Below, in pieces: positions 4,899 to 39,207 of a stretch of 46,277 nt of DNA. The notes below the pieces were generated by a model. The model was not told the DNA's origin, ran no database searches, and was given only the letters and a program-made list of their open reading frames with translations. Made by a program: the position numbers and the translations under genes. Source of the DNA: a virus; the IMG/VR virus record IMGVR_UViG_3300020603_000033, positions 1 through 46,277 of that record, one strand, 5' to 3'. Within the stretch, counting starts at the first letter, position 1. Each line of letters opens with the position of its first letter.

Positions 4899-4933
4899 CG
4901 GGCCGCCCCAGGAGGGCCGCCCCACACGAGGAG
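4874..4933 (+). repeat. Repeated gene-end plus leader, copy 2
   Basis: Second copy of the block at 3541-3602. It encodes ALDADGH and a stop, then the AGGA-loop hairpin and the GAGGAG ribosome site used by the gene at 4941. Confidence 0.7.
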
Positions 4934-4940
4934 TGAAACC

Positions 4941-5354: not shown

Positions 5355-5377
5355 CCCATCCCGGAGAACCCCTTCAC

Positions 5378-5871: not shown

Positions 5872-6112
5872 ATCTCCACGACGCCACCGCCTGCTACACG
5901 CCTCGGTACCCCCGACCCTGTACCCCGAGACCCCGACGCCGCAACACGGCATCCCGCCGAGCACCCGCCGCGCTACTACGCACATCATCGGCCAAAGGCT
6001 CCTACCACCCGGCCCCAGCCGACCGAGCGCCCCGCCCCGCCGCCACCGCGGGAACCGATCACCCGAACCAACACCAATCCGGACCGCCCCGGCACGGCCA
6101 CACCCCTCGACT

Positions 6113-6148
6113 TGCAGGCCGAAATGCAGGCCCAAATGCAGGACAGAC
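6113..6148 (+). repeat. Tandem 12-base repeats upstream of promoter B
   Basis: TGCAGGCCGAAA, TGCAGGCCCAAA, then a partial third TGCAGGACAGAC. The last unit ends 22 bases before the -35 box. This could be an activator or repressor array, or the coding remnant of an LQAEMQAQMQ peptide. Confidence 0.5.
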
Positions 6149-6170
6149 GACCGCTACCTTCCAATTATCC

Positions 6171-6199
6171 TTGACTTGCGCCCCCTCCCTCCGTACACT
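6171..6199 (+). promoter_or_regulatory. Rightward early promoter B
   Basis: TTGACT, 17 bases, TACACT, with the same flanking CCTTGACTTNCGCCC as promoter A at 2383. The gene at 6225 follows behind AAAGGAG with a leader of about 20 bases. Confidence 0.7.
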
Positions 6200-6224
6200 T
6201 GTACCTGAGGAAAGGAGCCTCGAT

Positions 6225-8018: not shown

Positions 8019-8389
8019 TTGGGCTCTCTGAGTTCAACATGGCATACGGCCTCCTGCTTGCCTCGACCGCCCCGCTCGGTTCACGCATCGACAGTTCGTC
8101 CGGGATGGCGTGGACGTCTGAGCTCCGGTACGCACTCACCGGGCCCCGGGCGAAGGACCCCGACCTCACACACCGCGTCTACATCCTGGTGGACGACTGC
8201 CTAACGCTCCTTACCTCGATGGCACGTCACGGCGCATACATCGCCTGCGACACACCCTCGGGAACCCTTTACCTTCCGCCAGAGACCATCGTCGCGGAGG
8301 TCCACATGTACCGGACCGCCCCGCAGAACGAGCTTGGAGACATGGTATGGGCATCGTCACCTACAACGGCGCCCGATTCGAGTGGCTAG
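8015..8389 (+). CDS. Hypothetical 124-residue protein
   Basis: Overlaps the previous gene by four bases and the helicase gene by 43. It has mixed helices and strands: VYILVDDCLTLLTSMARHGA is a possible strand-helix unit, and GTLYLPPETIVAEVHMYR looks like a beta hairpin. No catalytic pattern is seen. The long overlap with the helicase start suggests coordinated expression with it. Confidence 0.58.
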   Translation: MIGLSEFNMAYGLLLASTAPLGSRIDSSSGMAWTSELRYALTGPRAKDPDLTHRVYILVDDCLTLLTSMARHGAYIACDTPSGTLYLPPETIVAEVHMYRTAPQNELGDMVWASSPTTAPDSSG

Positions 8390-10392
8390 GCCACTTCGAC
8401 GAGCGGCACGTGCCCACGAAGGCCCGATGGCGCTGGGACCCGGACGCGAAGGTCTGGTACACCGACATCCTGGAACGCGCAGCTTTACTCGTGCACTACG
8501 CCAAAGGAGCGGCCCACGACCGCTTGCGTGACTACCTCGACGGCATGGAGGAGAGCCGCCAACAGAGCCGCGCCGTAGAGGCCGACATCGACGTGCCCGC
8601 ACCGCCGGGCTGCGAGTACATGCCGTTTCAGTTGGCGGGCATCCGCTACTGCCTCAGCACCCGCACCGGCAATGCCTTGATCGCCGACGAGATGGGCCTG
8701 GGTAAGACGATCCAGGCCCTCGGCCTCATCAACTGCCAACCGGACATACAACGCGTCCTTGTGGTATGCCCCGCCACGGTCAAACGCAACTGGGCTCGCG
8801 AGGCACACAAGTGGCTCGTACGTCCCCACCACATTCGCATATGGGAGAGCGCTGAGCTCAAGGGCCACCGAATGAGCGCCGCGGTGCCCTACGAAGGCGT
8901 GTCCGTTCACATCGTGAACTGGGACATCCTCACCCAGCGCAAACGGGACGACGACGACGAAACCTGGGCGCGCCCGGTTCTCTTGTCGCTACAACCGGAC
9001 CTCTTGGTCTTCGACGAGAGCCACAAGATGAAGAACCCCGCCGCGCAACGCACCAGGGCAGCGCTTGAGATCGCCACGACGGCCAAGCGCAAGCTGGCGC
9101 TGACTGGCACACCGATTGCCAACCGACCCATCGAGGCGTGGACTACGCTTCACATGCTCGACCCCGACTTCTGGCGCACGAAGAGCTACTACGCCAACCG
9201 CTATTGCGACGCCCACATCGAGCGCGTCGCGTGGCACAAGGACGTGTTCAAGGCCAACGGGGCCAGCAATCTCCCCGAGTTGCAGGACCGCCTCCGCGCC
9301 ACCGTGATGGTCCGCCGCCGAAAGATCGACGTGCTCACCGAGTTACCGCCAAAGCGACGCCAGATCATCGAACTCGACCCCGCCAAGTACGCGGAGGTCC
9401 TAGCGAAAGAGGCCGACGTCATTCACCGCACGAAACACGACCTCGCCGCAATGAAGGCCCGCCTCGACAACATCGACCGCGACACAAACGAGGCAGAGTA
9501 CAAGGCCGCCGCCCGAAGCCTGCGGGAGGGGTACACCGTCGCCTTCACCGAACTGTCTCGCGTCCGACACGAGACCGCGCTGGCCAAGGTCCAGGACGTA
9601 ACCGCCTTCGCCGAGGACGCACTGGAGTCCGACGACAAGATACTGGTCTTCGGCCATCACCATGACGTGATCGAATCCCTGGCAACCTTGCTGGCCAAGT
9701 ACGGCGTGGTCACGCTCACCGGCCAGCACACCCAGGACGAGCGCAACCACGCCATCGACGCCTTCCAGACCGACCCCGACATCCGCGTCTTTATCGGCTC
9801 AACACTCGCCGCCGGTATGGGCATCACACTGACCGCCGCCAGCACGGTCGTCTTCGCCGAACTCGATTGGGTGCCCGCCTACCTGAGTCAGGCCGAAGAC
9901 CGAACCCACCGCATCGGCCAAGCCAACAGCGTCAGCGTCTACCACCTTGTCGTCGACGGGTCCCTCGACGCACGCATGGCCACGATCCTTGTTGAGAAAC
10001 AGGCCGTGATCGACGCCGCGCTCGACGACTCCACGGGCGACATGGCCATCAAGCCCTTCGAGGTGCTCGACCTGGCCCCTCCCAAGGTGAAAGAGATCGT
10101 CGGCTATGTCTTCGCCTACGAAGAACTGGCCGCCATTCACGCTTGGCTCCGTCGTCTGTCGGCCCTCTGTGACGGCGCGCGTACCCTCGACGGGGCCGGC
10201 TTCAACAAGAACCATGCCCCCATCGTCCACTCACTCGCCCAGGCGGACGCGCTCACCAACGCGCAAGCCGCCGTCGGCATCCGGCTCGCTAACTTCTACA
10301 AGGGCCAGTTCGAGGCACGGGAGCAAGCCGACATCGGCTACGTCTACCAGCAATGGCGCGCTGCCATTGCAGTCAAGGAGGACGCCGAATGA
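8347..10392 (+). CDS. SNF2-family DNA helicase/translocase
   Basis: A 681-residue protein. The N-terminal 60 residues hold a small module (ARWRWDPDAKVWYTDILERA) common before the helicase core in phage SNF2 proteins. The two RecA-like lobes follow: DEMGLGKT at 114-121 (motif I), VVCPATV (Ia), DESH at 223-226 (Walker B), LTGTPIANRP (III), a helical insertion at about 340-410, GSTLAAGMGITL (V) and DRTHRIGQ at 518-525 (VI). It resembles the SMARCAL1/HARP-like branch that remodels or anneals DNA. In phages these proteins probably act in replication fork remodelling or recombination. The next genes are a tiny coupled gene and a likely annealing protein, which fits a recombination module. Two-metal nuclease motifs are absent. 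Confidence 0.92.
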   Translation: MGIVTYNGARFEWLGHFDERHVPTKARWRWDPDAKVWYTDILERAALLVHYAKGAAHDRLRDYLDGMEESRQQSRAVEADIDVPAPPGCEYMPFQLAGIRYCLSTRTGNALIADEMGLGKTIQALGLINCQPDIQRVLVVCPATVKRNWAREAHKWLVRPHHIRIWESAELKGHRMSAAVPYEGVSVHIVNWDILTQRKRDDDDETWARPVLLSLQPDLLVFDESHKMKNPAAQRTRAALEIATTAKRKLALTGTPIANRPIEAWTTLHMLDPDFWRTKSYYANRYCDAHIERVAWHKDVFKANGASNLPELQDRLRATVMVRRRKIDVLTELPPKRRQIIELDPAKYAEVLAKEADVIHRTKHDLAAMKARLDNIDRDTNEAEYKAAARSLREGYTVAFTELSRVRHETALAKVQDVTAFAEDALESDDKILVFGHHHDVIESLATLLAKYGVVTLTGQHTQDERNHAIDAFQTDPDIRVFIGSTLAAGMGITLTAASTVVFAELDWVPAYLSQAEDRTHRIGQANSVSVYHLVVDGSLDARMATILVEKQAVIDAALDDSTGDMAIKPFEVLDLAPPKVKEIVGYVFAYEELAAIHAWLRRLSALCDGARTLDGAGFNKNHAPIVHSLAQADALTNAQAAVGIRLANFYKGQFEAREQADIGYVYQQWRAAIAVKEDAE

Positions 10393-13508: not shown

Positions 13509-15272
13509 GTGCAGGCCCTTCTCTCCCAGGTCTACTGGCGGGCACCCACCGAACGCGCCCTAACTGTTGTCAGCGAGCGCCTACGAGAGCGCCAAACGTG
13601 GCAGCGACTCATCCGCGAGCGCTCCAAGTACCAGCAAGACCCCGACTCCTTCTCCGCCCTCTCCCGCGCCACACAGCGTTCCCTGGCCCTACGGTTCCAG
13701 AAGCTCGACCAGAAGATCGCGCAGGACCGGACCCTCCTGTACTTCCCATTCGCCCAGCAGCAACGCTTTCACCAGTGCACGCTGTGGGACGAGCCCGGTG
13801 GCCGCAAGGCCATCAAGGCCAAGACGCGCATCGCCGACTGCGGTAACCGCAGCGGGAAGACGATGGCGGGATCCGTCGAGGCAGTGTGGTGGGCCACCGG
13901 CACCCACCCGTACCTGTTCACCCCCGCGCCGCCGCTGACAGTCTGGTACGTCGCGCTGGACTTCCCACACTCCCGAGACATCAACAAGCCGATCCTCGAC
14001 CGCTTCATGCCCGAGGGCGCGCGATGGAACGCGCAGGCCAGGTCCTGGACCCTGCCCAACGGCAGCGAGATCGTCCTCAAGTCTCAGGAAGCTGGCCGAG
14101 CCAAGTTCCAGGGCGGGAACGTGCCGCTCTGCGTGTGGGACGAGGAGGGGAACGACCCCGAGGAGTCCAAGTCCATCTACACCGAGTGCCTCGTCCGGAC
14201 GTGGGACGAGTCCGGCCAGATCGTGATGACTCTAACCCCCATCGAGCAGTACGCGTGGATATGCGAGCTCATCGAGAAGGGCCGCGACGGCGACCCGGAG
14301 ATCGAGGTCCACTCCTGGTCCGGCCTCGACAACCCCTACGTGCCGACCGCCGAGATCGAGGGCATGAGGTTCGAGAGCGAGGAGGAGGAGCAGGTCCGCA
14401 AGTACGGGGCCCTGATACCGCTCGGGACGCGCACCATCTTCAACAAGAGCACCCTCCGCCTCTGGCACGAGGAGTGCCGTAACGCCATCTTCCACTGGGG
14501 CGCCCTGGAGAAGCACGCGCTTGAGGGCGACCTGTACGCGTTCAAGGAACTACGCCCGAGCCCGGAGCCCACTTCGCTCCGGGTGTACGAGTGGCCCACG
14601 AAGCATGACTTCTACATCGTGTGCGTGGATACCAGCGGCGGCGTTGGCGCCAACTACTCCGTCGCCATCGTACTGGCACGCGTACCCCTGCGCGTCGTGG
14701 CGGTGTTTCGGAGCAACGTCGTGCCCGTACCGGAGTTCGCCGTGGCCTGCATGATGCTCGGCCATGCCTACTTCCAGCATCGCATCGACGCCCCTGCGCT
14801 GCTCGCCGCCGAGGAGAACAACCATGGCCACGGCCTCCTGACGGACATCATGCGCGCACGGTATCGCAAGCTGTGGTATCGTCCGAAGGAGACGAAGTTC
14901 GGCTACGAGGACTTCCCTGGCTGGCGAACGGACACGGCAACGCGGCCTGTCCTGGAGTCCGCGGTTCAGGTTGCCATCGAGGAGAACGCAATCCAGATTC
15001 GAGATGTACGCATCGTTGAGGAGTGCCTTCGCTACGAGCGCAACGCGCTGACCGGACGCACGGGCGCCCCTCGCGGACAGCACGACGACACCGTTATCGC
15101 TCTCGGAATCGGCCTCGCTGTCCACGCTATCGAGCCGCTGCCGGCGTTCGCAGTCCCACCTCCGCCCCCGGATGAAAGGGCTCTCCTATGCCAGCCGACC
15201 GCGCCGCCGCCACGAGAACTGCGCCGACAAGCCAAGAGGACGCCGTGGAGAAAGAACCAAGTCATCATCTGA
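13509..15272 (+). CDS. terL: Terminase large subunit (complete)
   Basis: A 587-residue protein starting at GTG after GAGGAA. The ATPase domain has Walker A GNRSGKT at 112-118 and Walker B VPLCVWDEE at 205-213 with catalytic Glu212/213. A coupling motif TLTPIEQ lies near 240. The RNase H-like nuclease domain has VCVDTSGG with Asp374, LAAEENN with Glu435 and GQHDDT with Asp526/Asp527. It is therefore a full motor plus nuclease that packages DNA through the portal encoded at 16392. It differs clearly from the orphan nuclease domain at 6933. The N-terminal 90 residues are helical and basic, as often for TerS or portal contact. Confidence 0.93.
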   Translation: MQALLSQVYWRAPTERALTVVSERLRERQTWQRLIRERSKYQQDPDSFSALSRATQRSLALRFQKLDQKIAQDRTLLYFPFAQQQRFHQCTLWDEPGGRKAIKAKTRIADCGNRSGKTMAGSVEAVWWATGTHPYLFTPAPPLTVWYVALDFPHSRDINKPILDRFMPEGARWNAQARSWTLPNGSEIVLKSQEAGRAKFQGGNVPLCVWDEEGNDPEESKSIYTECLVRTWDESGQIVMTLTPIEQYAWICELIEKGRDGDPEIEVHSWSGLDNPYVPTAEIEGMRFESEEEEQVRKYGALIPLGTRTIFNKSTLRLWHEECRNAIFHWGALEKHALEGDLYAFKELRPSPEPTSLRVYEWPTKHDFYIVCVDTSGGVGANYSVAIVLARVPLRVVAVFRSNVVPVPEFAVACMMLGHAYFQHRIDAPALLAAEENNHGHGLLTDIMRARYRKLWYRPKETKFGYEDFPGWRTDTATRPVLESAVQVAIEENAIQIRDVRIVEECLRYERNALTGRTGAPRGQHDDTVIALGIGLAVHAIEPLPAFAVPPPPPDERALLCQPTAPPPRELRRQAKRTPWRKNQVII

Positions 15273-22921: not shown

Positions 22922-23923
22922 ATGGCCACGTTGGACCTTGGCGCAGCCAATGGGCTGATTCGCCAACTCTTCCTGCCGAAGATCATCGACACCGTGACTC
23001 GGAGCAATCCCCTGTTCCTGATGATGCGAGACCGGGGCGAGCGCTTCGAGGGCGGGGAGATGATCTCGACGCCCATCATGTATGGGGAGTACCAGGAGGG
23101 CGAGGGCGGGTCGTTCGGCGACGAGGACGACAACATGCCGTCTGAGGCGGGCGACGACGCCGCGGCGGTTTCGTTCGACTGGGCCTCATACGCCCAGCCA
23201 GTCCGAGTCACCCTCCGCGACCTCGCCAAGTTCGCCTCTTCGGAGGCGGCCGCCGTCCGACTACTCCGCATACGCTCACAGTCCGCAGGCATGAAGATGG
23301 CCGACCGATTCGGAGACCACCTCTACGCACCGGTGGGCCACGATGCTACGGACATCCTGTCCATCCCGGACATCTTCGATGACACGATCACCTACGGGAT
23401 GATCGACCGGGCAGGGGCCGGCAACGGCTTCTGGAAGGCGAAGCACGTCGATGCCTCGACCGACGGCACGACCTCCACGGCGATCTCGCTCCGAAAGGTG
23501 CACGACACCATCGAGGAGGCGACGGAAGGCAACATCCGGCCCAGCATCGGCATCACTGACCAGGCCCTCTACAACCGCATCTGGGACCTCCAGATGGACA
23601 AGATGCGGTACACCGACAAGGCAGTGCTCGACTACGGCGGCTTCACGGGCGTCGTGGTCGACGGTGTACCGATCTTCAAGGACTCGCACGCGGACAATGG
23701 CGGCGTGGACGGTTCGAGCAACACCCGCCACATCCTGCGATTCCTCAACCTCGACTTCATCCACTGGATCGGGCACGACGACTTCAACTTCGTCGTGACC
23801 GATCTGGACTTCGTGAACAAGATGAGCGTCGTGCTGCTGAGCCACATCCTGTGGTTCGGGCAGTTCTACTGCGACAACCCGCGGTACCAGGCCGAGCTCA
23901 TCAACGCCAAGTCCACCGCCTAA
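22922..23923 (+). CDS. Major capsid protein
   Basis: A 333-residue protein with N-terminal SNPLFLMMRDRGERFEGGEM and PIMYGEYQEGEG, then FDWASYAQPVRVTLRDLAKF, the middle DNIRPSIGITDQALYNRIWD-like region (here EGNIRPSIGITDQALYNRIW) and VDGVPIFKDSHAD, ending with QFYCDNPRYQAEL. This pattern is found in HK97-fold capsid proteins of many phages (start, E-loop-like acidic stretch, P-domain with VDG.PI..D). No long N-terminal delta domain is visible, consistent with the separate scaffold gene upstream. It builds the icosahedral shell. Confidence 0.84.
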   Translation: MATLDLGAANGLIRQLFLPKIIDTVTRSNPLFLMMRDRGERFEGGEMISTPIMYGEYQEGEGGSFGDEDDNMPSEAGDDAAAVSFDWASYAQPVRVTLRDLAKFASSEAAAVRLLRIRSQSAGMKMADRFGDHLYAPVGHDATDILSIPDIFDDTITYGMIDRAGAGNGFWKAKHVDASTDGTTSTAISLRKVHDTIEEATEGNIRPSIGITDQALYNRIWDLQMDKMRYTDKAVLDYGGFTGVVVDGVPIFKDSHADNGGVDGSSNTRHILRFLNLDFIHWIGHDDFNFVVTDLDFVNKMSVVLLSHILWFGQFYCDNPRYQAELINAKSTA

Positions 23924-23938: not shown

Positions 23939-24940
23939 ATGCTTCCGATCCCAGGACAGTACACTCTCTCGACGAAGACGCAGAACCCGCGCCACACGCT
24001 CGGTGCGCGCGTCGAGGGCCACATGGGCACGGTATTCCGGTACGCTCGCGCACTGGAATCCATCACCCGTGGCCAACTCGTCGGTCCTCGCGTCTACGCC
24101 ACCATCAGCACCGGCATCACCGCGGCCGCGAACACCCGGACGTTCACGTCCTCGGGCTCCACGTTCACCAAGCGCGTGACCAGACCGGATGGGACGGTCA
24201 CGACGTGGGAGGCGCCTGCCATCGGCTCGATCCTCCACGTCAGCGCAGGCACGGGCAAGGAGCAGTTCGCGCGGGTGACCGACGTGCTGAGCACCACGAA
24301 GCTGGGCGTCAAGGTCATCGGCCGTACGAACGGCACGTGGGGCACCGCATTGGCGGCCACAGACACGGTTCGCATCGTCGAACCGTGCGTCGTTCAGTAC
24401 GACGTGGACGACGCCTACGGGCTGCCGCCCTACGGCTACGCCCTCGGCACGATCGCGTCGGGCGACTTCGCCTACTTCCTCGCAAGGGGGGTCGGCGAGT
24501 GCGTCCCGAACACGACCGTCGCGGGCGTCCGGCTGATCCCGAGCCCCACCGCGGGCCAGGTCGAGCCCTGCGAGCTCTTCGGCAGCGCAACGTGGGACGC
24601 GGGAGCGATCGCCGACGGCGACGAGGAGGCCAAGGAGGTAACCGTCACAGGTGCCGCCCTGGGCGACTTCGTTCAGGCGTCGTTGTCCATCGACGTGGCA
24701 GACCTGGCGCTTGTGGCAGCCGTCACCGCCGCCAACACCGTCACCGCGCTACTCCTCAACAACACCGGCGGCGCCATCGACTTGGCCTCCGCGACGATCT
24801 ACGTCCACGTGGACAAGCGGTTCACCGCAGCCCGAACCTTCGACTGCGGCGTTCTGCTGTCCGCGCCTGGCACAGCGGGCGACCAGGGGTTGGTGCTCTG
24901 CGATCTGCTGTCGGGTGTCGAGGGGAACTGGTACTTCTAA
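23939..24940 (+). CDS. Head structural protein after the capsid gene
   Basis: A 333-residue protein after AGGAGG. Beta-rich and Thr/Ala/Gly-rich throughout (GITAAANTRTFTSSGSTFTK, then VEPCVVQYDVDDAYGLPPYG and LALVAAVTAANTVTALLLNN). The likely role is a capsid decoration or minor head protein, from its place directly after the major capsid gene. It has no similarity I can name. It is the last gene before the broken glycosyltransferase start at 24965. Confidence 0.62.
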   Translation: MLPIPGQYTLSTKTQNPRHTLGARVEGHMGTVFRYARALESITRGQLVGPRVYATISTGITAAANTRTFTSSGSTFTKRVTRPDGTVTTWEAPAIGSILHVSAGTGKEQFARVTDVLSTTKLGVKVIGRTNGTWGTALAATDTVRIVEPCVVQYDVDDAYGLPPYGYALGTIASGDFAYFLARGVGECVPNTTVAGVRLIPSPTAGQVEPCELFGSATWDAGAIADGDEEAKEVTVTGAALGDFVQASLSIDVADLALVAAVTAANTVTALLLNNTGGAIDLASATIYVHVDKRFTAARTFDCGVLLSAPGTAGDQGLVLCDLLSGVEGNWYF

Positions 24941-25152: not shown

Positions 25153-27249
25153 ATGCGCATGGCGCTGTGGCATCTGGGGGGATTAGGAGATGTAGTCGAT
25201 GCTGCCCACCTCGCCGTGGCGCTGCGACGGGCCTACCAACCGGACCACCTTGCCTGCTACGTGCGCAACCTCGAACAAATCGACCTGCTCTTCTGTCTAC
25301 GCTACGACGGCGCGCCTATTTTTGATAGGGTACTCCTGACCACATTACCTTGGGCTGATGGAGTACTACATGAGGCGCCTCGCTGGGATGTCTTCGTAGA
25401 TTGGCGGCCCTACGTTGCCAGCTTTTACGAACGACTCGGCGACTTTCCCCGCTCTGATGACGTGGTGATGGTTCGGACCAACCCCCTACGCAAGCCATGG
25501 CTACGGGCGTACAACGCGCCCAGATCGCTGTACTGCGCTCAGTTCCTAGACTCTTACGCGCTTCCAGTGCACCAGATAGCCTGTAGGGCGCTAGGAATAG
25601 ATACTGCGCCGATAGGATCATTACACCTAGCCCCCCCGCGCGACAGGCACCCGGCCCTTCGCCTTCTTGAGCGACTATCGTACATAACGCTGGCCACGGG
25701 CAGCGACGCGCAGACGAACGCGCGAACGCCGCAGACTAAGGAGTGGCGCCCTGAGAAGTGGCGCACGCTCGTCGCGGCCATTCGCAAGTCCCACCCACAC
25801 CTTCCGATTCTTCAGGTGGGTTTACGCGACGAGGACTATATCCCTGGCGCCATCAATCTACTGGGCAGAACCTCCATACCCAGACTGCTCCGGATTCTCT
25901 CGGGAAGCATGCTCCATCTATGCTGCGAGAATGGGACGGCCCGAATGGCGCGCGTGGCCGGAACACAAAGTGTGGTCCTTTACGGACCTACCAGCCCCCA
26001 GCTATTCGGCCTGCAAGGCAACATAGCCATCACATCCAAAGCGTGCGAGCCCTGCTTCATGCGCACGCCAAGTTGGGCAACCCAATGCCGATACGATTGG
26101 GATAGTGAATGTCTGAACGGCATCAACCCTAGCGCAGTAGCCCATGTCGTAACGAAGACCCTGGAGCCGAAAGTGGTTGCCGCCATGCCTACCCAGGCCA
26201 ACGTGGTCGCCCAGCGCCCCCGTCTACGGCGCAAGGCCCCCGTCACGGCGGCGCTTTCCCACATGGGCGGACTTGGTGACCTATGTGATGGGGCTATCAT
26301 CGGCGCCGCGATCAGAGAGCAAGAGCACCCCGACCGACTGGTGGCTTACCACGAAACGATCAGAGGAGAGACGTCGGCGGACCTAATGTGCGCCTTCCGC
26401 TATCAGGGACGTCCACTCTACGACGCCATCATACCCTGGGGAGACTTCCACTTCGCCGAGGTGCTAGAGAGGGATGGGCACAAATGGCCGTTGTTCTATG
26501 ATTGGCGGCCGTACGCCGGCATGGTTTACCGCTTCGGGCGCCCAGTTTCTGGATTTGACGATAGTACGTATGCCCGCATGTATCGCGAGCCGCTTAGTGA
26601 TGCTATCCACGACGCCGCCCGCATGAAGAAGTCAAACCGGGACATGGGATTCGAGACACTGGGACTGACTCCTGTCTCACCTACCATCGTCACGATAGAC
26701 ATGCCCGCTGCCTACGCCGTGCCCAGGTATCCCTACATTTCTATCTGCAACGGAGTAGATCCCTACGCAAGCCCCTTCGGCGTGTCTGTCAAGCAGTACC
26801 CCATTGACCTGTGGGCTCGCGCGGTATCTCTGATATCCGCGCGACTTCCGGGAGTACGGCTCCTGCAATTGGGCTTGTCGCACGAGGCCCCGATCCCCGG
26901 CACCGAGAACCTACTTGGGCGCACGTCATTCTGGAACTACCTGGCTCTTCTCCAGGGATCGCGTATTCATATTGCGACCGAAGGGGGCTCCGTACGATTG
27001 GCTCACTTACTCGGAACCCGTAGCGTTGTTCTCTTCGGGCCTACACCGGTCCATATGTTCGCACTACCGGGTAATTGGGACGTACGCTCCACCGTCTGTG
27101 AGCCATGCATATGGGCGTCATCGGCCTGGCTCACGAACTGCCACGCCAAACGTTCATGCGCCTGTCTACGCGAGCTCCCGCCCAGCACCATCGCCGATGC
27201 CGCGCTCGAAGCGTTCCACGCGCCCGAGATGGAGACATCACATGCCTGA
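25153..27249 (+). CDS. Tandem GT9 (heptosyltransferase-like) glycosyltransferase
   Basis: A 698-residue protein with two repeats, about residues 1-345 and 370-698. Each opens with a GGLGD strand-loop-helix (HLGGLGDVVDAAHLAVALRR; HMGGLGDLCDGAIIGAAIRE) and has VDWRPY or YDWRPY near residue 90 of the repeat. Each ends with the family-9 nucleotide-sugar site: NLLGRTSIPRLLRIL with HLCCENGTARMARVAG and VVLYGPTSP in the first, and NLLGRTSFWNYLALLQ with IATEGGSVRLAHLLG and VVLFGPTPV in the second. The pattern is that of the waaF/waaC group, which transfers heptose from ADP-heptose. A tandem fusion could add two sugars or pair an active with a regulatory half. It is lower in GC than the head genes. 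Confidence 0.75.
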   Translation: MRMALWHLGGLGDVVDAAHLAVALRRAYQPDHLACYVRNLEQIDLLFCLRYDGAPIFDRVLLTTLPWADGVLHEAPRWDVFVDWRPYVASFYERLGDFPRSDDVVMVRTNPLRKPWLRAYNAPRSLYCAQFLDSYALPVHQIACRALGIDTAPIGSLHLAPPRDRHPALRLLERLSYITLATGSDAQTNARTPQTKEWRPEKWRTLVAAIRKSHPHLPILQVGLRDEDYIPGAINLLGRTSIPRLLRILSGSMLHLCCENGTARMARVAGTQSVVLYGPTSPQLFGLQGNIAITSKACEPCFMRTPSWATQCRYDWDSECLNGINPSAVAHVVTKTLEPKVVAAMPTQANVVAQRPRLRRKAPVTAALSHMGGLGDLCDGAIIGAAIREQEHPDRLVAYHETIRGETSADLMCAFRYQGRPLYDAIIPWGDFHFAEVLERDGHKWPLFYDWRPYAGMVYRFGRPVSGFDDSTYARMYREPLSDAIHDAARMKKSNRDMGFETLGLTPVSPTIVTIDMPAAYAVPRYPYISICNGVDPYASPFGVSVKQYPIDLWARAVSLISARLPGVRLLQLGLSHEAPIPGTENLLGRTSFWNYLALLQGSRIHIATEGGSVRLAHLLGTRSVVLFGPTPVHMFALPGNWDVRSTVCEPCIWASSAWLTNCHAKRSCACLRELPPSTIADAALEAFHAPEMETSHA

Positions 27250-27874
27250 CCTATCTTTCGTGGGCACCCCAGTCGATGCCCTCTCGATCATACGCAAGGA
27301 GACCATGCGGCGTCCCACAGGAGAATACCGGGAGATCATCGCGCCGGCGCTACTTCACCTCTACCACCACGGATACCTGGGCGACATGCTTGAAATTGGC
27401 GTCGCCCAGGGTAACACCCAACGCCATCTTGCGCGGATTGCGCGTGACATGAATCGGCTACACGGCACGAACGTTCGCGCCTGGGGCATCGACAGAGCGG
27501 ATCGTCGCAATCTGAATGAGAATGAGATGATCCGCATGGACCAACTCCTCGCCGAGCTCTACCTAGAGGATTGCCGCCCGCATATCGTGCTCAGCGACTC
27601 TACCGACTGCCGCGATCTTGCAGGCATCTTCAACCTGGTGTTCCTTTTCGTGGACGGAGGTCATGACTACGCGACCACCCTCAGTGACTTGCAGACCTTC
27701 GTGCCCTGCGTGCTGCCTGGGGGGATCATCGCCGTACACGATGCCGAACCCGGTTTCGACCCCAACAGAGCCCTTACGGACTTCCTTTCCTCCTACACCC
27801 ACATCGCAGACTACTTTGTCCACGACCCGCCGGACCGCGTAGACCCAGCGGTATGGTACGGGGTACATGCCTAG
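27242..27874 (+). CDS. SAM-dependent methyltransferase
   Basis: A 210-residue class I methyltransferase of the Methyltransf_24 or sugar-cluster type. Motif I LEIGVAQGNTQRHL (residues 50-63) binds SAM; LFVDGGHDYATTLSDLQTFV (132-151) and PGGIIAVHDAEPGF (156-169) match the acidic and post-motif strands, with a possible metal site in the Asp/His pairs. Such enzymes methylate sugars or amino sugars in polysaccharide and glycopeptide loci. Its ATG overlaps the end of the tandem glycosyltransferase by 8 bases, so it belongs to the same sugar operon. Confidence 0.78.
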   Translation: MPDLSFVGTPVDALSIIRKETMRRPTGEYREIIAPALLHLYHHGYLGDMLEIGVAQGNTQRHLARIARDMNRLHGTNVRAWGIDRADRRNLNENEMIRMDQLLAELYLEDCRPHIVLSDSTDCRDLAGIFNLVFLFVDGGHDYATTLSDLQTFVPCVLPGGIIAVHDAEPGFDPNRALTDFLSSYTHIADYFVHDPPDRVDPAVWYGVHA

Positions 27875-27885
27875 GGGCCGGCTCC

Positions 27886-28977
27886 ATGCACGATCTGCGC
27901 GTCCTACACGTACAGGCATTCCCACCTCACCAGCACGGCACTTGGTGGGACCTCACATCGTTCCCAGAAGACCACCGGTGCCACTGGGGAGTCTCCGCGG
28001 CGGTATCTCTCGAAGGCGGTTTCTGGGGCGAGTGCGACCTTGCCTATGTTCGAGAAACAGCGCAGGCATGCAATCCCCAGTTGATCTACCTGGGATTTCC
28101 AGACGCATGGACCAACGCACACCTGCCGGAGGTCCCGAGGCTTCACATGGCCATTGATGCTGCCCATTCTCTGGGATTACCGGTCCTTAGTTATCTAGAA
28201 CCCGACCAACTTGACTTTCTCTTCAGTGACAGCGCCTTGGCAGTGGAGTTCACGAAACTGCTGGACAAGTTAGACGGTATTCTAGTATGCGCGGACGGTC
28301 CGATGGCCCTACTACCTCATATCACCTCGACCCCGCTGTACTGGTGGGAGCGTTGCTCTGAAGTCTGCCGACAACTAGCCGGGAGCCCCTACCCCGACGG
28401 TCCACGAGATCTGATTGCGGTGGTCGCCTTTCACTCCGGATGGCCAGGCCGTCGATGCGGGGGCACGATCCACAACTACCTCGTGCTCAAGCCGCTCCTA
28501 GAGCGGCACCCGGACCTCACGTTATGGGCACTGAAGGGCCTACATGGCACCGAAGACCCGTACATTGACTATCTTGGCCTACGTGGGCGCTGTCTTCCAG
28601 CGTACTCGTACTCTAGGGGCCTACGCCCATGGCGGGACATTATCGCGATGCTACACCGCACCAAGCTGGCTGTACATCTCGAGGCGTACGATAGCCGTTC
28701 ACAGTTTCTACTCGAGTGCGCGGCGTGCGGTGTGCCCTGCGTCACGAATGCCTGCCCCCAGGCAGCTAAGTACCTGGAGATTGGTCGTCAGGTCCGCACC
28801 ATGTGGGATATAGGAGCCGCGATCGAGTACGGATCGCTGCTTCTCGATGACCACATCGCATGGGAAACCGAAAGTCGTCGCCTCTTCGCAGCGTCCAAGG
28901 CCAACGACATAACAATGACGGATCGCATCTTTCGGGCTGTGATTGCCCGCGGTATCCAACCGCATCGGGGCGAATAG
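27886..28977 (+). CDS. GT4-like glycosyltransferase
   Basis: A 363-residue protein. It lacks a recognised N-terminal signature but the C-terminal half matches the GT-B fold donor-binding end. RPWRDIIAMLHRTKLAVHLE precedes SRSQFLLECAACGVPCVTNA (the E-x7-E-like segment with the G-P-V/C turn) and a final IEYGSLLLDDHIAWETESRR. This is the usual GT4/GT1 arrangement for transfer of a sugar from a nucleotide donor. The N half has Trp/His-rich HQHGTWWDLTSFPEDH. The start is the ATG 11 bases after the methyltransferase stop. It is probably part of the same sugar-transfer pathway; acceptor unknown. Confidence 0.62.
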   Translation: MHDLRVLHVQAFPPHQHGTWWDLTSFPEDHRCHWGVSAAVSLEGGFWGECDLAYVRETAQACNPQLIYLGFPDAWTNAHLPEVPRLHMAIDAAHSLGLPVLSYLEPDQLDFLFSDSALAVEFTKLLDKLDGILVCADGPMALLPHITSTPLYWWERCSEVCRQLAGSPYPDGPRDLIAVVAFHSGWPGRRCGGTIHNYLVLKPLLERHPDLTLWALKGLHGTEDPYIDYLGLRGRCLPAYSYSRGLRPWRDIIAMLHRTKLAVHLEAYDSRSQFLLECAACGVPCVTNACPQAAKYLEIGRQVRTMWDIGAAIEYGSLLLDDHIAWETESRRLFAASKANDITMTDRIFRAVIARGIQPHRGE

Positions 28978-29141: not shown

Positions 29142-29276
29142 AATGGTATTGAGGACGCTGCCTTCTGGCACTGGGAGTCTATGCGCCTCTTTCACGCTGC
29201 GAAGGCTTACGATCTGGACGACAGCCTCCGCATCCTCCGAGACATAATCCACACGTACCGAGAGGAGCACCCATGA
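29142..29276 (+). other. In-frame continuation after the amber codon
   Basis: Codons after the TAG at 29139 read NGIEDAAFWHWESMRLFHAA then KAYDLDDSLRILRDII to HTYREEHP and TGA. This is helical and charged and ends with the usual ATGA coupling to the LamG gene at 29273. An internal ATG at 29181 could start a 31-residue peptide, but it has no ribosome site. Nonsense mutation, suppression or readthrough would all explain it. Confidence 0.55.
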
Positions 29277-30037
29277 TACGCGCGATGATCTTGACTGCGA
29301 TGGTTTCTATCGCCGCTATGGCGCAGTGGTCCTTGCAGGACCTCCAGTTCCTGTACACCTTCGATGAGGGGCAAGGAGAGATCGTCGCAGACTCGTCTGG
29401 CAACGGGCGCGACGCAGAGCTCCAGGGAAAGGGGTCCACATGGACCACGGGGGTATTCGGCGCGGCGGTCAGCTTCTCGGGCATGGGGTGGGCAGAGGTG
29501 CCCGGTTGGAGCACCCCCGAGCTAGGCGACTTCACTCTCGGGTGTTGGGTGAGGCCCGCCGCACAGCAGCGGCAGTGGGCCACGATCCTCGACTCGCACC
29601 AGGCGCCCCCACAGCGCGGGCTTGCCTTCGAGCAGAACAGTATGGAGCACAACCTGTTCCACACCATCTGGGGCGATGGGAAGGATTGGAGCGGCGGCGC
29701 CATCCAGACCCAGTTGGAGCCCGACGTCTGGCAGCACTTCGTTGGCGTTCGGGTCGGGGGGATATCGACCCACTACATCAATGGAGAAGTCCTACACACA
29801 GGCCTTGCCGGCCTTGAGGCGCCCGTGATGGCAGGCACCGACAACTTCCGCATCGCCAACTGGGTCGGCAGCGGGCGCAACTTCGCGGGCGCCATAGACG
29901 AGGCGTTTCTGTACTCCCGCGCCCTCAGCGCAGACGAGGTACAGAAGCTGCACGACAAGGGATTCTCGAAGGCGCTTGATGTCGTGCCGGCGCGCACGTT
30001 GGCAACTACATGGGCGTCGCTTCGCACAGAGAAGTGA
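29273..30037 (+). CDS. Secreted LamG/concanavalin-like domain protein
   Basis: A 254-residue protein with a short signal-like start (MIRAMILTAMVSIAAMA, probable cleavage before QWS). A LamG fold follows: LYTFDEGQGEIVADSSGNGR at the start, FTLGCWVRPAAQQRQWATIL, INGEVLHTG and AIDEAFLYSRALSADEVQKL at the end. The final ALDVVPARTLATTWASLRT resembles the end of many Poribacteria or Planctomycete-type LamG proteins, where a short linker and TTWG.LK close the domain. LamG proteins bind glycans or proteins outside the cell. It is probably host-derived cargo; a role in the virion or in altering the host surface is possible. Confidence 0.72.
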   Translation: MIRAMILTAMVSIAAMAQWSLQDLQFLYTFDEGQGEIVADSSGNGRDAELQGKGSTWTTGVFGAAVSFSGMGWAEVPGWSTPELGDFTLGCWVRPAAQQRQWATILDSHQAPPQRGLAFEQNSMEHNLFHTIWGDGKDWSGGAIQTQLEPDVWQHFVGVRVGGISTHYINGEVLHTGLAGLEAPVMAGTDNFRIANWVGSGRNFAGAIDEAFLYSRALSADEVQKLHDKGFSKALDVVPARTLATTWASLRTEK

Positions 30038-30050: not shown

Positions 30051-31043
30051 ATGAAGATTGTCATCGTCGGGACCGATGGGCCTACCGATTACACCACGAG
30101 CACCGGCATCGTACTCCATGACTGGCGCGGCAGTATGCAGGCATCGGCCTCTGCACTGCTGCCATTCGTCGCCGAAGATGATGATCTGTGTGTTGTCGGG
30201 CGGATGCCCGCGAACCTGATGGCTCCGTACAAGGAATACATGAAGGCCCGGTATGAGGACCGGATATCCACACGGTACGTCATCCCAGGACCTGAGGCGA
30301 GGGCCCCAGGTCGCATGACCCAGGGCGGGGAACGATGGGTCGGCAATCTGGGGGGCTGCGCGAATGCGCTTCGATTCGAGGAACTGCCGCACGGGCTCTT
30401 CGACGGATGCCGCGCGGTCTTGTTCAACGCTGGGGGCCCGTACACCTACGAACCCAGGATGATCGAGCAGGTACGACAAGCGTGCCCTGGCGTCTTCATC
30501 CAGGTCGATCCTCATTGCTTGCTCTGGCATCTGGACGAAGAGTTCAACATCGTCTACGGGCCCTTGACCAACTGGGCCTACTACATGGGCATGGCAGACG
30601 TTGTGCAGTGCAACCGCGCAGAAGCCCAGATCTTGCTCCAGCGACACCCGAGCGAGCGCTTAGAGGCTGAGGAGCTTCTGCTGGGCCTGCATGCCGCAGG
30701 CCTCCCATGCCCAGTCGTCACCGACGCCGCCGAAGGCGCCTGCGTCCTACAGTACGATGGCTTCTCCCAGAGACCGATCGCGGAGCGGATCCCTGCGCCT
30801 GAGATCACGCAGATCATAGACGAGACCGGGTGCGGCGACGCATTCGGCGGCGCGTTCCTGAGTGGCAAACTTCGGGGGTACGGTAACATGGCATGCGGCC
30901 AGCTCGGATGCGCTTGCGGCACCTTGGCCTGCCAGTATCTAGGGTACCCAAGGCCCGGAGACATCACGAAGAAGAGCATCGAGTACGTGATGAGGACGAC
31001 CTATGCTCGTGACTACTCAGACAGTTTCTTTGCTCTGCGATGA
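30051..31043 (+). CDS. PfkB-family sugar kinase (HldE kinase-like)
   Basis: A 330-residue protein of the ribokinase/PfkB type. The second PfkB signature is clear: DETGCGDAFGGAFLSGKL (residues 257-274) with the anion-hole GCGD and the catalytic Asp263. VLFNAGGPYTYEPRM and DVVQCNRAEAQILL match the substrate-side strand and the NxxE metal segment (here NRAEA). The first PfkB signature (GG-N-A region) is represented by LGGCANALRFEE near residue 103. In bifunctional HldE this domain phosphorylates D-glycero-beta-D-manno-heptose 7-phosphate to the 1,7-bisphosphate. The following gene is the matching nucleotidyltransferase, overlapping by 41 bases. Other PfkB sugars (ribose, fructose) cannot be excluded. 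Confidence 0.75.
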   Translation: MKIVIVGTDGPTDYTTSTGIVLHDWRGSMQASASALLPFVAEDDDLCVVGRMPANLMAPYKEYMKARYEDRISTRYVIPGPEARAPGRMTQGGERWVGNLGGCANALRFEELPHGLFDGCRAVLFNAGGPYTYEPRMIEQVRQACPGVFIQVDPHCLLWHLDEEFNIVYGPLTNWAYYMGMADVVQCNRAEAQILLQRHPSERLEAEELLLGLHAAGLPCPVVTDAAEGACVLQYDGFSQRPIAERIPAPEITQIIDETGCGDAFGGAFLSGKLRGYGNMACGQLGCACGTLACQYLGYPRPGDITKKSIEYVMRTTYARDYSDSFFALR

Positions 31044-31464
31044 TGCCCGAGCACGGGGGATGAAGATCGTCATGGCCGCTGGCAACTTCGACGTGCTCCA
31101 TGCGGGCCACATCCGCCATCTGAGAGAAGCGCGGGCTGAGGGCGACCTGCTCATCGTCCAACTCGCGTCGGATGAAGTCGTGACCAACGGGAAGGGCCCC
31201 GGGCGCCCAGTGCACCCGTTCCGGGAGCGTGCCGACATGATCGAGGCGATCCGGTACGTAGACTACGTGGTCGAGGACACGGTGCACGACGGGATCGTCG
31301 TCGTGAACATGATTCGGCCGGACGTGTTCACGAGGGGCTGTGACTACACGCGCGAGACAGCGCCCGAGACAGCGCTTGTCGAGTCGTACGGTGGCCGGAT
31401 GTTCTTCACGTCCGGACCGAAGCGAAGCAGTCGGGACATCGTGGCCCAGATTCGGAGAACCTGA
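31003..31464 (+). CDS. RfaE2/HldE-type nucleotidyltransferase
   Basis: A 153-residue cytidylyltransferase-superfamily enzyme. GNFDVLHAGHIRHLREA (residues 27-43) holds the HxGH motif at 33-36; KGPGRPVHPFRERADMIEAI, then RYVDYVV, MIRPDVFTRGCDYT and SSRDIVAQIRRT align strongly with the C-terminal domain of HldE (RfaE2), which makes ADP-glycero-manno-heptose from the 1-phosphate. CTP:phosphoethanolamine or FMN relatives lack the GPGRPV...ER pattern. The start behind GAGGA is well supported; an inner ATG at 31060 would drop the first 19 residues. With the kinase upstream this recreates HldE as two overlapping genes in the same order as its domains. Confidence 0.85.
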   Translation: MLVTTQTVSLLCDDARARGMKIVMAAGNFDVLHAGHIRHLREARAEGDLLIVQLASDEVVTNGKGPGRPVHPFRERADMIEAIRYVDYVVEDTVHDGIVVVNMIRPDVFTRGCDYTRETAPETALVESYGGRMFFTSGPKRSSRDIVAQIRRT

Positions 31465-32465
31465 TGGGCTGGTACAACCTGCTCGACCTTCGGACCCGCG
31501 TCCGTGACTTCCTCAAGGAGCGCGACGACGACGGGTACTGGACGAACGACGAGCTCAACCGGCACATCAACGCGGGCGTCCGGGAGTTCGGCCGCAAGTC
31601 CCGCTGCGTCGAGGCGTGCTTCTCACAGGACGTGCAGCCGGGCAAGCAGGCCTACTCCGCGCCCGGCACCATGCTCCAGGGATCGCTGGCCTACGTCCAG
31701 TTCCAGGAGCCCGGCCAGGACCCGGTGAGGCTGGAGTACCTGGACGACCGGCGCTTCCACTTCGAGTACCCGCTGTACACCCTGGGCATTCCTCGCGTCT
31801 ACACGATCTGGCGCGACTGCATCTACCTGGGGCCTACTCCGAAACGGTACGACGAGGCCGCGATCAGGCTCATCTCCGAGGGGCTGTACACGTACGCGCT
31901 GCTTCCCAACGGGGACCGCATCTACCTGCTACAGAACTCGACGACGCTCCTCGGCCAGGACGTGGCTACCGTCGAAGTAGTCACCGCGGCGAGCCTCAGT
32001 TTGACAGGATCGAACAAGGTCGTCGTCCACCTTCCCGAAGACGAGGACGTGGTGCTCTTCGAGACGACCTCCCGCACCGGCACGGTCACGATCGTGCTCG
32101 ACAACTACATCCTGAAGGCGAAGCTGCCCGACGGGAACTACGTGAACCTGTACGAGGTCGGCTTGCAGAGCTACCACGGCACCCTGCACCTTCATGCCTA
32201 TGAGGTGCCGGAGCCGTTCTCCGAGGATACCGACGGCTGCGAGATCCACGACGAGTACCAAGAGGGGCCTGTGTACTACGCCGTCTGGCTCGCCCTCTTG
32301 GCAGACTCCAAGGGCGACTTGGCAGCGCCGTTCAAGGCGATGTTCGACTCGATGGTCAACGAGGCGAACTGGGCCAACCGGATGCATCAGTTCGACCAGA
32401 TAAACGGCCGTCAGACGGCCCGCGAGGAGCTAGGGCGTGTCCCCAGCCACCGAAGAGTCTTTTGA
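31464..32465 (+). CDS. Head-tail adaptor / connector protein
   Basis: A 333-residue protein starting with one base overlap after the previous stop. The N-terminal pattern (LDLRTRVRDFLKERDDDGYW then TNDELNRHINAGVREFGRKS) is the helical opening of phage adaptor proteins that bind the portal ring. The middle is beta-rich (VRLEYLDDRRFHFEYPLYTL; VATVEVVTAASLSLTGSNKV and an EDVVLFETTSRTGTVTIVLD repeat), probably a surface domain. The last 90 residues return to helices (YYAVWLALLADSKGDLAAPF, AMFDSMVNEANWANRMHQFD). It closes the head after packaging and joins the tail hub encoded next, which overlaps it by 29 bases. Confidence 0.7.
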   Translation: MGWYNLLDLRTRVRDFLKERDDDGYWTNDELNRHINAGVREFGRKSRCVEACFSQDVQPGKQAYSAPGTMLQGSLAYVQFQEPGQDPVRLEYLDDRRFHFEYPLYTLGIPRVYTIWRDCIYLGPTPKRYDEAAIRLISEGLYTYALLPNGDRIYLLQNSTTLLGQDVATVEVVTAASLSLTGSNKVVVHLPEDEDVVLFETTSRTGTVTIVLDNYILKAKLPDGNYVNLYEVGLQSYHGTLHLHAYEVPEPFSEDTDGCEIHDEYQEGPVYYAVWLALLADSKGDLAAPFKAMFDSMVNEANWANRMHQFDQINGRQTAREELGRVPSHRRVF

Positions 32466-36117: not shown

Positions 36118-39100
36118 ATGCCAACACCTGTGACGAGCGCGCTACTCGGTCTGAGCCAGGGGATCATGCAGGGCAACAAGCAGGCCATCGAGCAGTACTC
36201 CGCGGAGCTCAAGCGCGGCGCACAGGCCGAGCAGGAGGAGCTACTTCGCCTTCAGCAGGAGCAACTGCGCCTGACGATCGACTCCAAGAAGCGCGAGATG
36301 ACCCGCGAGGACGCGTTGGAGTATGACCGGCTCATGGCCGATCAGAGCGCGCTTGAGGAACGCACCCTCAAGAACAGGCTCACCTCGGAGACGATCCGCT
36401 TCATCGATTTCCTGCCTCCCGACGAACGCCTCAAGGTCATGCGAGGACTCGCGGACAAGATGTCCGGGGCGTCGGAGACCGCACAGCGGGAGGCGCAGTC
36501 GGTCTACTACCGCGCACAGGCATCCGAGGCCACTGCCCGAGCAGGCCTCTATGGCTCGCAGTCTCAGTGGTACAGCGAGCGCGCGATCACCGAATCGATG
36601 CAGCGCGACGAAAACCTGGCGCTTCTGCGAGGCCGGGTCCGGGAACTCGCAGGCGATGCACGCGCTCAGGAACTGGAGAACACGTTCACCGAGTCGACCC
36701 TGCACGCCCGGGTCCTGTATCAACGCGAGCTCCTTGAGAGCCAGACTTCGGAATTGCAGGGCAAGGCCCTGATGGCGCGCTTCACCACCGGGCTGGTGAA
36801 CAAGTGGTTGGAGGATGTCGGCCAGAGCGACGAGCCCTGGGCTGCGGCGTTCCGGGAGGCCCTGGTCGAGAAAGAGGTGGGCGCGTACGGCATCGCACGC
36901 GAGATGACCGGCGACGCCCTGAACATCGCCAAGCTCGGAGGCCTCACGGACGCGCTCAGGCGGACGGGGGCCGCGCAGACGCGAAGGGCCAATGCCGCGC
37001 GGGGCGCTGCCAAGGTCTCAGACTGGTGGGATGATCCCTACGAGCGACAGTTGGGCCCGCCCGGGCTCAGCTACAAGACCTACCCGATCTCGCAGGCACC
37101 GTCCGACATCATGGAGCGCGTTCGCGGGTCGCTCATGCTGATGCGAGACAACCCGGAACTGGCCGGCACGGGGATATCGGCGCTGGAAGCGGGCATGGAG
37201 ATGTACCTGGGCCGCATGTCACTGCCACTGAGCGGGGGGCGGATGTTCGGGGCCAACGACGGGCTGAACAGCGTCATCATCACGAAGGCATGGGCGGACT
37301 CCGTGGGACTCCATGGCAGGCCTCTGAATCAACTACCCGACCCAGAGACCGGCAGGCCGTATGTTCTGGCGACACAAGAGCAGGGCACTTACGTCAGCGT
37401 CCCGAAGCGGCATCTGAAGGACGCCATGATCCAAGCGGCAGGGATTGAGCTCGATACGGAACTGGCCTTGCAGGACCCTGCGTATGCCGCCCAGCCCCAG
37501 ACGATGAACCGAGCGTTCGCCTATTTCTTCAACTCCTACGTCCAGAACGCGGGCGAGCTCATGCCGCCGTTCTACCGCGCGATGATGGAGCACACCGCGA
37601 ACGCTCTGACGGCTGGGGTACAGCAGGCCGCTCGGCAAGAGGCGGCGGCGCAGCCTCCCGTGAAGGCACGCGTGCCCGTGGGGCCGCCAGGAGCCGGCGG
37701 CTACGTCGAGACGGAGCCTGCGGCCGCCGCGCCTCTGCGCGAGGACGTGGCGTCGATCCTGGACATCATCGCGGTGCCGTACTCGATAGGCGCGGAGATG
37801 GGCGAACCAGGCCAACAGGCCCTGGTGGACTTCATGACTGCCGCCCTGAGCGCGCATGAGAGTGCGCAGTCGAGCGAGTACGCGATGCACGCGATGGGCA
37901 GGTTGGGCGACGACTTCGGCGAGGTCCTTACGGACAGCGCTGGAAACCGTCTCTTCCTTCACGACAGGCTTCCAGACGGCACCCGCGTGTACCGGGACGC
38001 GGCAGGGCACGAAAAGAGATGGACACCAGACGCCCTCGCCGCCGACGTGAACTCGCGGCGCATCACGGTGAAGAAACCCAAGCCGCTTAGCGCCACCCGG
38101 GCCCCAGCGAGGCCGATCACCCCGGGCGCTGGCTACCCGCTCCTCCCGGGCGATCGCCCCCCGATACCCGTCGTCGACCACCAACGGGCCAAAGGCCTCA
38201 GCGAGCGTGACTTGGCGCTGGTCAATGCTCGGCACGACCGCGACTTGTCATACGCCGCGTTTGCGCTCCGCGGGAACATCCTCGATGCCATAGGCGAGCG
38301 GGTGCCAGGCGAGTCGATCGACGCGCTACGACGACGCATCGTGAGCTACTACATGGCGCCCGACGTGACCCCGAGGGACCGGGTCTACGCGGCAGCCGCA
38401 GCGAACAAGAACCGGAGCGCTGAGCTCCGCCGGGCCATCGCGCGGGGCCTTCCCTGGCCGAAGTGGACAAACTCCCTGCGGCAGGGGGCCTCCTATGAGG
38501 AGGCCGCTGGGGCTTTGGGCATCGACAATATGCTGAAGCAGATTCAGCCCGCGGTGGACGCCATCTACCGCGCCGAGCAGGAGGGCGCGGTCGGCGAGCC
38601 AGTCAGCATCTTGGACTTGGTGCCCGAGCCACTGGACCTTCCCGAACAGTTACTTCCCGTTCCTCGAAGCACGATCTCCCGGAACTTGTCTGAGGCAGTG
38701 GCATCGGCGGACCCGCCGCGAATACGTGGCGTCTTGGCCGCGAAGGAACTCCTAGAGAACGCGCTCTTCGAGTCGGTGAGCGAGAAGGAGGGCGGTTTGT
38801 CGGTCGAGATTCCAGACACCGCTGCCTTCGGGGCCCATGAGCTCAACAACCCCGGACTCCTGGGGTACAGCGACATGCTGCGAGCTCGCGAGGGGGCTAC
38901 GCGCTCCGAAGACGGCCTCGCCAAGTTCGCCACGCCAGAGAAGGGCTACGCGGGCCTCTTCGACGTCGTGCTCACAAACAGCCTGCGCGTCGGGCAGTCG
39001 CTCGGAACCTTCCTCGCAAACTACGGTGCTTCCCTTGATCGGACGACGGGCGTTCCCGGAGAGACCTTCGCAAGCGACGCGCTTTCAGCCCTTCAACGTG

Positions 39101-39207
39101 AGCAGCCCGCCTACCAGGAGACAACCCCGCTCATCGAGGTCGACAGCCAGTCCCTCGCGCGCGTACTCGCAAGGTTGATCTCAGGCACCGAGGTCTACTA
39201 CGCATAG
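36118..39207 (+). CDS. Large internal virion protein with muramidase-like C-terminus
   Basis: A 1029-residue protein. The first 300 residues are helical and Gln/Glu/Arg-rich (LGLSQGIMQGNKQAIEQYSA; QEELLRLQQEQLRLTIDSKK), like core proteins carried in the head. The middle has mixed parts with Pro-rich linkers near 525 and 660. From residue 870 to the end, ELNNPGLLGYSDMLRAREGA with NNPG at 910-913, DGLAKFATPEKGYAGLFDVV, SLGTFLANYGA and EVDSQSLARVLARLISGTE follow the pattern of P5-type virion lytic transglycosylases (NPGNL; GFA.F....G..A). It would open peptidoglycan at entry. A catalytic Glu can be assigned only tentatively (Glu908). Confidence 0.65.
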   Translation: MPTPVTSALLGLSQGIMQGNKQAIEQYSAELKRGAQAEQEELLRLQQEQLRLTIDSKKREMTREDALEYDRLMADQSALEERTLKNRLTSETIRFIDFLPPDERLKVMRGLADKMSGASETAQREAQSVYYRAQASEATARAGLYGSQSQWYSERAITESMQRDENLALLRGRVRELAGDARAQELENTFTESTLHARVLYQRELLESQTSELQGKALMARFTTGLVNKWLEDVGQSDEPWAAAFREALVEKEVGAYGIAREMTGDALNIAKLGGLTDALRRTGAAQTRRANAARGAAKVSDWWDDPYERQLGPPGLSYKTYPISQAPSDIMERVRGSLMLMRDNPELAGTGISALEAGMEMYLGRMSLPLSGGRMFGANDGLNSVIITKAWADSVGLHGRPLNQLPDPETGRPYVLATQEQGTYVSVPKRHLKDAMIQAAGIELDTELALQDPAYAAQPQTMNRAFAYFFNSYVQNAGELMPPFYRAMMEHTANALTAGVQQAARQEAAAQPPVKARVPVGPPGAGGYVETEPAAAAPLREDVASILDIIAVPYSIGAEMGEPGQQALVDFMTAALSAHESAQSSEYAMHAMGRLGDDFGEVLTDSAGNRLFLHDRLPDGTRVYRDAAGHEKRWTPDALAADVNSRRITVKKPKPLSATRAPARPITPGAGYPLLPGDRPPIPVVDHQRAKGLSERDLALVNARHDRDLSYAAFALRGNILDAIGERVPGESIDALRRRIVSYYMAPDVTPRDRVYAAAAANKNRSAELRRAIARGLPWPKWTNSLRQGASYEEAAGALGIDNMLKQIQPAVDAIYRAEQEGAVGEPVSILDLVPEPLDLPEQLLPVPRSTISRNLSEAVASADPPRIRGVLAAKELLENALFESVSEKEGGLSVEIPDTAAFGAHELNNPGLLGYSDMLRAREGATRSEDGLAKFATPEKGYAGLFDVVLTNSLRVGQSLGTFLANYGASLDRTTGVPGETFASDALSALQREQPAYQETTPLIEVDSQSLARVLARLISGTEVYYA

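Follow-up and report, generated by a model that had tools for sequence, protein, structure and literature searches.

A PfkB-family kinase gene overlapping an RfaE2-type nucleotidyltransferase gene in a putative phage glycosylation cassette

Two overlapping phage genes that had been predicted to encode a split HldE matched that enzyme in one half and departed from it in the other. The transferase was of the HldE domain II (RfaE2) type, as predicted, and not a glycerol-3-phosphate cytidylyltransferase. The kinase, in contrast, did not hold up as an HldE-type heptose kinase, because profiles and trees placed it outside the HldE clade and nearest to an uncharacterised PfkB group. The general idea of a phage cassette for sugar activation and transfer remained the best reading of the locus. 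Specifically, we gave about an even chance to the pair being the sugar-activating part of a glycosylation cassette carried by the phage, with a glycan that would be placed on the virion or the host surface.

The gene pair and its late-operon setting

The window (the whole stretch of DNA that was analyzed) comprised a 46,277-base virus record, and the pair and its neighbors were located at the positions listed in Table 1. The layout described in the original prediction was confirmed: the kinase and transferase open reading frames (ORFs) were in different frames and overlapped by 41 bases, and a tandem GT9 gene, a Methyltransf_24 gene, and a weak, below-cut-off GT-B match (i.e., two glycosyltransferase genes and a methyltransferase gene) lay 1-5 kb upstream on the same strand. 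The motifs named in the prediction were also present. GCGD was found in the kinase, with Asp263 aligned with the PfkB catalytic Asp, and HAGH at residues 33-36, GPGRPV, and ER were found in the aligned transferase.

The transferase stop codon overlapped the ATG of the adaptor gene by one base, at position 31464. This overlap and the 41-base overlap suggested that the pair may be co-expressed with late structural genes. An alternative, later ATG for the transferase is located at position 31060, and its use would remove the overlap with the kinase. We favored the start at 31003 because the RfaE2 profile match began at residue 12 and a GAGGA sequence was located just upstream of 31003. Both products can be taken as members of real protein families, as opposed to chance ORFs, because the kinase matched Pfam PF00294 (PfkB) with 57.1 bits (cut-off 25.8) over residues 179-298, which cover the C-terminal half only, and the transferase matched Pfam CTP_transf_like with 60.8 bits (cut-off 21).

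Table 1. Coordinates of the gene pair and neighboring features in the window
Feature	Positions	Strand	Basis and remarks
Major head protein	22922-23923	+	PHROG 9953, 104.8 bits; marks late structural module
Protein of unknown role	23939-24940	same as pair	Upstream of pair
Tandem GT9 (heptosyltransferase-superfamily) glycosyltransferase	25153-27249	+	PF01075, 37.2 bits, two stretches
SAM-dependent methyltransferase (Methyltransf_24)	27242-27874	+	About 210 aa; PF13578, 45.3 bits on longer ORF from 26915
GT-B glycosyltransferase (weak, probable)	27853-28977	+	374 aa; PF13524, 17.9 bits, below cut-off of 25
LamG_3 (concanavalin A-like lectin) protein	29273-30037	+	PF13385, 74.3 bits, cut-off 27.6; hydrophobic N-terminus
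PfkB-family sugar kinase	30051-31043	+	330 aa, ATG; GCGD, D-x-H-x-L insertion
HldE domain II/RfaE2-type nucleotidyltransferase	31003-31464	+	153 aa, ATG; HAGH, KGPGRPV, RSSR
SU10-type adaptor	31464-32465	+	PF24175, 63 bits

The methyltransferase probably starts at the ATG at 27242 and not at the first TTG of its ORF, and the region from 27242 to 27871 matched PHROG 2675 with 40.1 bits. For the GT-B protein, no relative was found in the PDB. The LamG_3 gene sits between the glycosyltransferase genes and the kinase gene, with a 13-base gap to the latter; its product could be a virion decoration or a secreted protein and is a possible glycan binder.

The head protein had relatives in Mx9 and ppBjS10J-1, in which a few small genes lie between the head gene and downstream tail or head-closure genes. 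Thus, the cargo genes of the window appeared to sit within a late structural module. When the structural proteins of the window were compared with those of Mx9 and ppBjS10J-1, the head protein alone was matched by sequence, and a pattern scan of viral contigs with the head protein, the adaptor, and the GT9 protein yielded no relatives. The GC3 values were 0.64-0.72 for the GT9, methyltransferase, and glycosyltransferase genes, 0.74 and 0.79 for the pair, and mostly 0.82-0.90 for the structural genes.

Relationships of the transferase and the kinase

In the case of the transferase, the NCBIfam model TIGR02199 (rfaE_dom_II) scored 122.9 bits (122.4 bits in a second scan), compared with 57.1 bits for TIGR01518 (glycerol-3-phosphate cytidylyltransferase, TagD). 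On these scores and the tree described below, we rejected a TagD-type transferase. Because the score was below the curated equivalog cut-off of TIGR02199 (181.5 bits), we refer to the protein as RfaE2-like and do not call it an equivalog. It also matched PHROG 7878, which carries the label bifunctional heptose kinase/adenylyltransferase, with 89 bits. The closest plasmid match, at 44% identity, was to a transferase-kinase fusion from Azospirillum oryzae (L055), in its N-terminal domain, and a fusion in a Patescibacteria MAG (L051) was 40% identical. In a 43-row tree, the window transferase grouped with the rows AzosFus, PatesFus, and Pates2nd (support 96/80), apart from a large TagD-like viral set; a set with 99/88 support in the transferase tree contained most of the HldE rows. 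The HxGH and KG-x-x-RPV motifs were kept, and the C-terminal S-[ST]-[ST] motif read RSSR (STT in HldE rows and SSS in the fusions).

As far as its sequence can tell, the kinase is not recognizably HldE domain I. IolC (36.8 bits) and ribokinase (31.2 bits) ranked first among the NCBIfam models, and TIGR02198 (rfaE_dom_I) reached 11.6 bits (E 0.11, cut-off 345). The PDB matches were a sugar kinase, ribokinases, and adenosine kinases, and HldE was not among them. As indicated by the alignment, the kinase lacked the HldE motif R-[IL]-S-P-E-A-P-V-P and carried RGSMQAS in place of GG-x-x-N, and it retained the catalytic GCGD and NxxE. In trees of 20, 34, and 57 rows, the HldE clade had 99-100% support and always left out the kinase, whose branch was long. 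When the kinase was forced together with HldE, the p-AU values were 0.445 (20 rows), 0.115 (34 rows), and 0.037 (57 rows); only the largest set rejected this arrangement. In addition, we examined the 13 genomes common to the kinase hit list and the list of true HldE kinases in the phylum of L052, and the best match to the window kinase was a different PfkB gene in all 13.

The original prediction had offered its own refutation, namely a phylogeny that placed the kinase with ribokinases or the transferase with glycerol-3-phosphate cytidylyltransferases. The kinase fell outside HldE, though not with ribokinases proper, so the kinase half of this refutation in effect applies; the transferase did not fall with the cytidylyltransferases. 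A ribokinase proper was rejected for the kinase, as the RbsK rows were located elsewhere in the tree. AlphaFold models of the kinase had a mean pLDDT of only 34.6 when no alignment was supplied and 36.4 with a four-row alignment.

The nearest relatives of the kinase (L080, L082, L084, L087, L097, L099, L102, L103, and L114, with L085 and L105 more distant) shared with it GCGD and an insertion containing D-x-H-x-L plus a tryptophan. The profile of this uncharacterised PfkB group, found in the phylum of L052, was the best match overall (71.7 bits, compared to 56.8 bits for a Patescibacteria group and 24.0 bits for HldE), and the support for placing the kinase with this group was 99/93 in the 34-row tree and 92-96 in the 57-row tree. 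Group members that were scanned scored at most about 51 bits against the curated NCBIfam models tried. Unlike the window, the group loci that were read had no HldE-type transferase adjoining the kinase gene and often had rmlD instead. Specifically, rmlD was near the group kinase gene in seven Pfam-tested loci, adjoining it in five and separated from it by one or three genes in two, and galE, rmlA, and rmlC were close to the group kinase gene in L127. These neighbors hint at a role in nucleotide-sugar metabolism for the kinase group. Loci with the group kinase gene beside or near rmlD were L090, L091, L093, L127, L130, L131, and L132, some of which were near histidine or lysine biosynthesis genes and serS.

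The heptose question and comparable systems

The GT9 gene is an internal tandem repeat, with two halves of about 345 aa that are 32% identical (9e-53). Its PF01075 score was above the gathering score of 22, and WaaC matched the tandem protein with an E value of 0.0016. D-T-G-x-x-H is the donor-site motif in WaaC. At this site, the GT9 halves read E-N-G-T-A-R and E-G-G-S-V-R, with E and R replacing D and H, and heptose transfer by the tandem protein is therefore not implied. A search of the record, which may be incomplete, yielded no match to HldD, GmhA, or the GmhB-like phosphatase family at E 0.001. Because these matches were absent and the GT9 motif was replaced, the proposal of a nearly complete route from heptose phosphate was not supported. 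The host could supply HldD, GmhA, and GmhB, and heptose is a possible sugar for the pair, although it is no longer the default.

Each GT9 half ends in a four-Cys cluster, C-x2-C-x10-C-x(5-7)-C. The cysteines (C298, C301, C312, and C320, and C649, C652, C663, and C669 or C671) perhaps form a metal site. TibC, which belongs to the GT-B heptosyltransferases and heptosylates a protein with ADP-heptose as donor, has an iron finger at residues 339, 342, 358, and 370 (PMC4358343), a spacing that differs from the C-x2-C-x10-C-x7-C of the GT9 halves, and no TibC match to the halves was found. Perhaps the clusters are a TibC-like iron finger.

The window resembles HldE (RfaE) of E. coli and others in its order, with the kinase ahead of the transferase, and in having a domain II-type transferase with HxGH and KG-x-x-RPV. 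However, HldE is a single bifunctional heptose kinase/adenylyltransferase, whereas the window has two overlapping genes and a kinase outside the domain I clade. Judging by rfaE_dom_I scores of kinases encoded beside transferases, true split HldE pairs already exist in phages S-SSM7 (135.6 bits) and S-CAM1 (139.4 bits) and in IMG/VR contigs L004 (104.7 bits) and L071 (166.2 bits), and all four carry the pair together with sugar-modifying genes. The cyanophages S-SSM7 (SSSM7_126/127) and S-CAM1 share with the window an overlapping transferase and PfkB kinase pair, but in them the transferase precedes a kinase of the true HldE type, and S-SSM7 adds an HldD-like epimerase (212 bits). The two genes of the S-SSM7 pair are T4-GC 304 and 305; Sullivan et al. 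2010 (PMC3037559) list both among co-occurring "LPS genes" whose function is unknown. In L071 (IMGVR_UViG_3300017991_003853, positions 4504-6201), a phosphatase-like ORF, an RfaE2-type transferase gene (124.5 bits), and the true HldE kinase gene are found near further sugar genes; the transferase and kinase genes overlap by 11 bases, and this locus fits the idea of a phage split HldE better than the window does.

The fusions in the A. oryzae plasmid and the Patescibacteria MAG, which are the nearest relatives of the window transferase, differ from the window in being fused in reverse HldE order and in having kinases that belong to the HldE clade. Both fusion genes (L051:3657-6309 and L055:5938-8108) are followed by a SIS-domain (isomerase) gene, and a second RfaE2-like transferase gene comes after in L051.

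The transferase superfamily is common in phages, with matches in 126 records of the phage collection. A PfkB gene (E 0.01) was also present in 3 of 34 viral records with a transferase, and L071 is additional to these three. Kinase pattern scans of viral contigs, genome contigs, and annotated phages yielded no relative in which the same two genes are paired. Overall, the pair departs only modestly from what phages are already known to carry. Mycobacteriophages are similar in encoding glycosyltransferases, which are thought to modify virion proteins of the capsid and tail (Freeman et al. 2023, cited in PMC11256854 and PMC12619734). The passages on that system in these two papers describe no sugar-activating pair. 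A literature search found no paper that combined phages with ADP-heptose or heptose enzymes.

Candidate functions of the pair

In the glycosylation cassette that we favor, the kinase would make a sugar phosphate, which the HldE domain II-like transferase would link to a nucleotide (probably ADP); glycan assembly and capping would fall to the tandem GT9 protein, the second glycosyltransferase, and the methyltransferase. A virion protein would be the likeliest target because the genes lie in a late operon, downstream of the head gene and upstream of the adaptor gene, and the host surface would be the second choice. Also in line with this reading are the nucleotide-sugar genes near the cellular relatives of the kinase, the transferase-kinase pairs that accompany sugar-modifying genes in other viruses, and the virion glycosylation reported for mycobacteriophages. 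We infer the kinase-then-transferase sequence, as well as the sugar, the nucleotide, and the acceptor. Activity is not assured, because RGSMQAS replaces GG-x-x-N in the kinase and RSSR replaces STT or SSS in the transferase, and an operon neighbor need not share a pathway. A bolder proposal, which we regard as doubtful, is a previously undescribed two-enzyme route in which the D-x-H-x-L/GCGD kinase feeds the RfaE2-like transferase and a nucleotide sugar other than ADP-heptose would be used to decorate the virion.

It is unlikely that the pair is a true split HldE, in which a very diverged domain I would make heptose-1,7-bisphosphate, the host would provide GmhA, GmhB, and HldD, and the GT9 protein would transfer heptose. 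The gene order matches that of HldE, the transferase is of the HldE type by profile and tree, true split pairs occur in other phages, heptosyltransferases belong to GT9, and a clade of kinase plus HldE was not rejected with 20 or 34 rows. Against these points stand the rfaE_dom_I score of 11.6 bits, compared to 104.7-166.2 bits for other phage kinases, the missing R-[IL]-S-P-E-A-P-V-P motif, the strongly supported HldE clade that leaves out the kinase and the p-AU value with 57 rows, and the match to another PfkB gene in each of the 13 genomes with a true HldE.

A CH2OH group is the phosphate acceptor of most PfkB enzymes. Hence a nucleotide-linked polyol or other small alcohol, formed by a kinase that phosphorylates a hydroxymethyl group and a transferase that acts like TagD, has some appeal, and TagD belongs to the transferase fold family and many of the phage transferases that we found were TagD-like. 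We nevertheless considered this quite unlikely, given that the RfaE2 score of the window transferase was twice its TagD score and the tree separated it from the TagD-like viral set. The two genes might also be unrelated passengers, perhaps partly decayed, that do not act together. The substrate-binding motifs depart from the norm in both enzymes, the glycosyltransferase genes differ in GC3 from the structural genes, and a second example of the pair was not found; however, both ORFs are intact, tightly overlapping, and joined to the adaptor gene, and GCGD, NxxE, HxGH, and KGPGRPV are retained, and we judged this explanation improbable.

If the pair is active, it would suggest what is done by a PfkB group that all curated NCBIfam models miss. 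Sugar-activation genes have been found in phages before, but it is rarely clear which sugar is made or what accepts it, and the pair offers a compact late-operon cassette in which the kinase, transferase, and acceptor are separable for study. If the pair is inactive or ordinary, little changes.

Elsewhere in the record, ARAGORN reported a probably spurious tRNA-Gln(ctg) at 37486-37581 on the minus strand, within a long plus-strand ORF (36118-39207). Two ORFs resembled terminase large subunits: one at 6933-7649 (238 aa, C-terminal TerL matches, PHROG 5653, 94.9 bits) and one at 13509-15272 (587 aa, PHROG 2, 70.8 bits). A large helicase ORF was located at 8347-10392 (PHROG 62, 370.9 bits).
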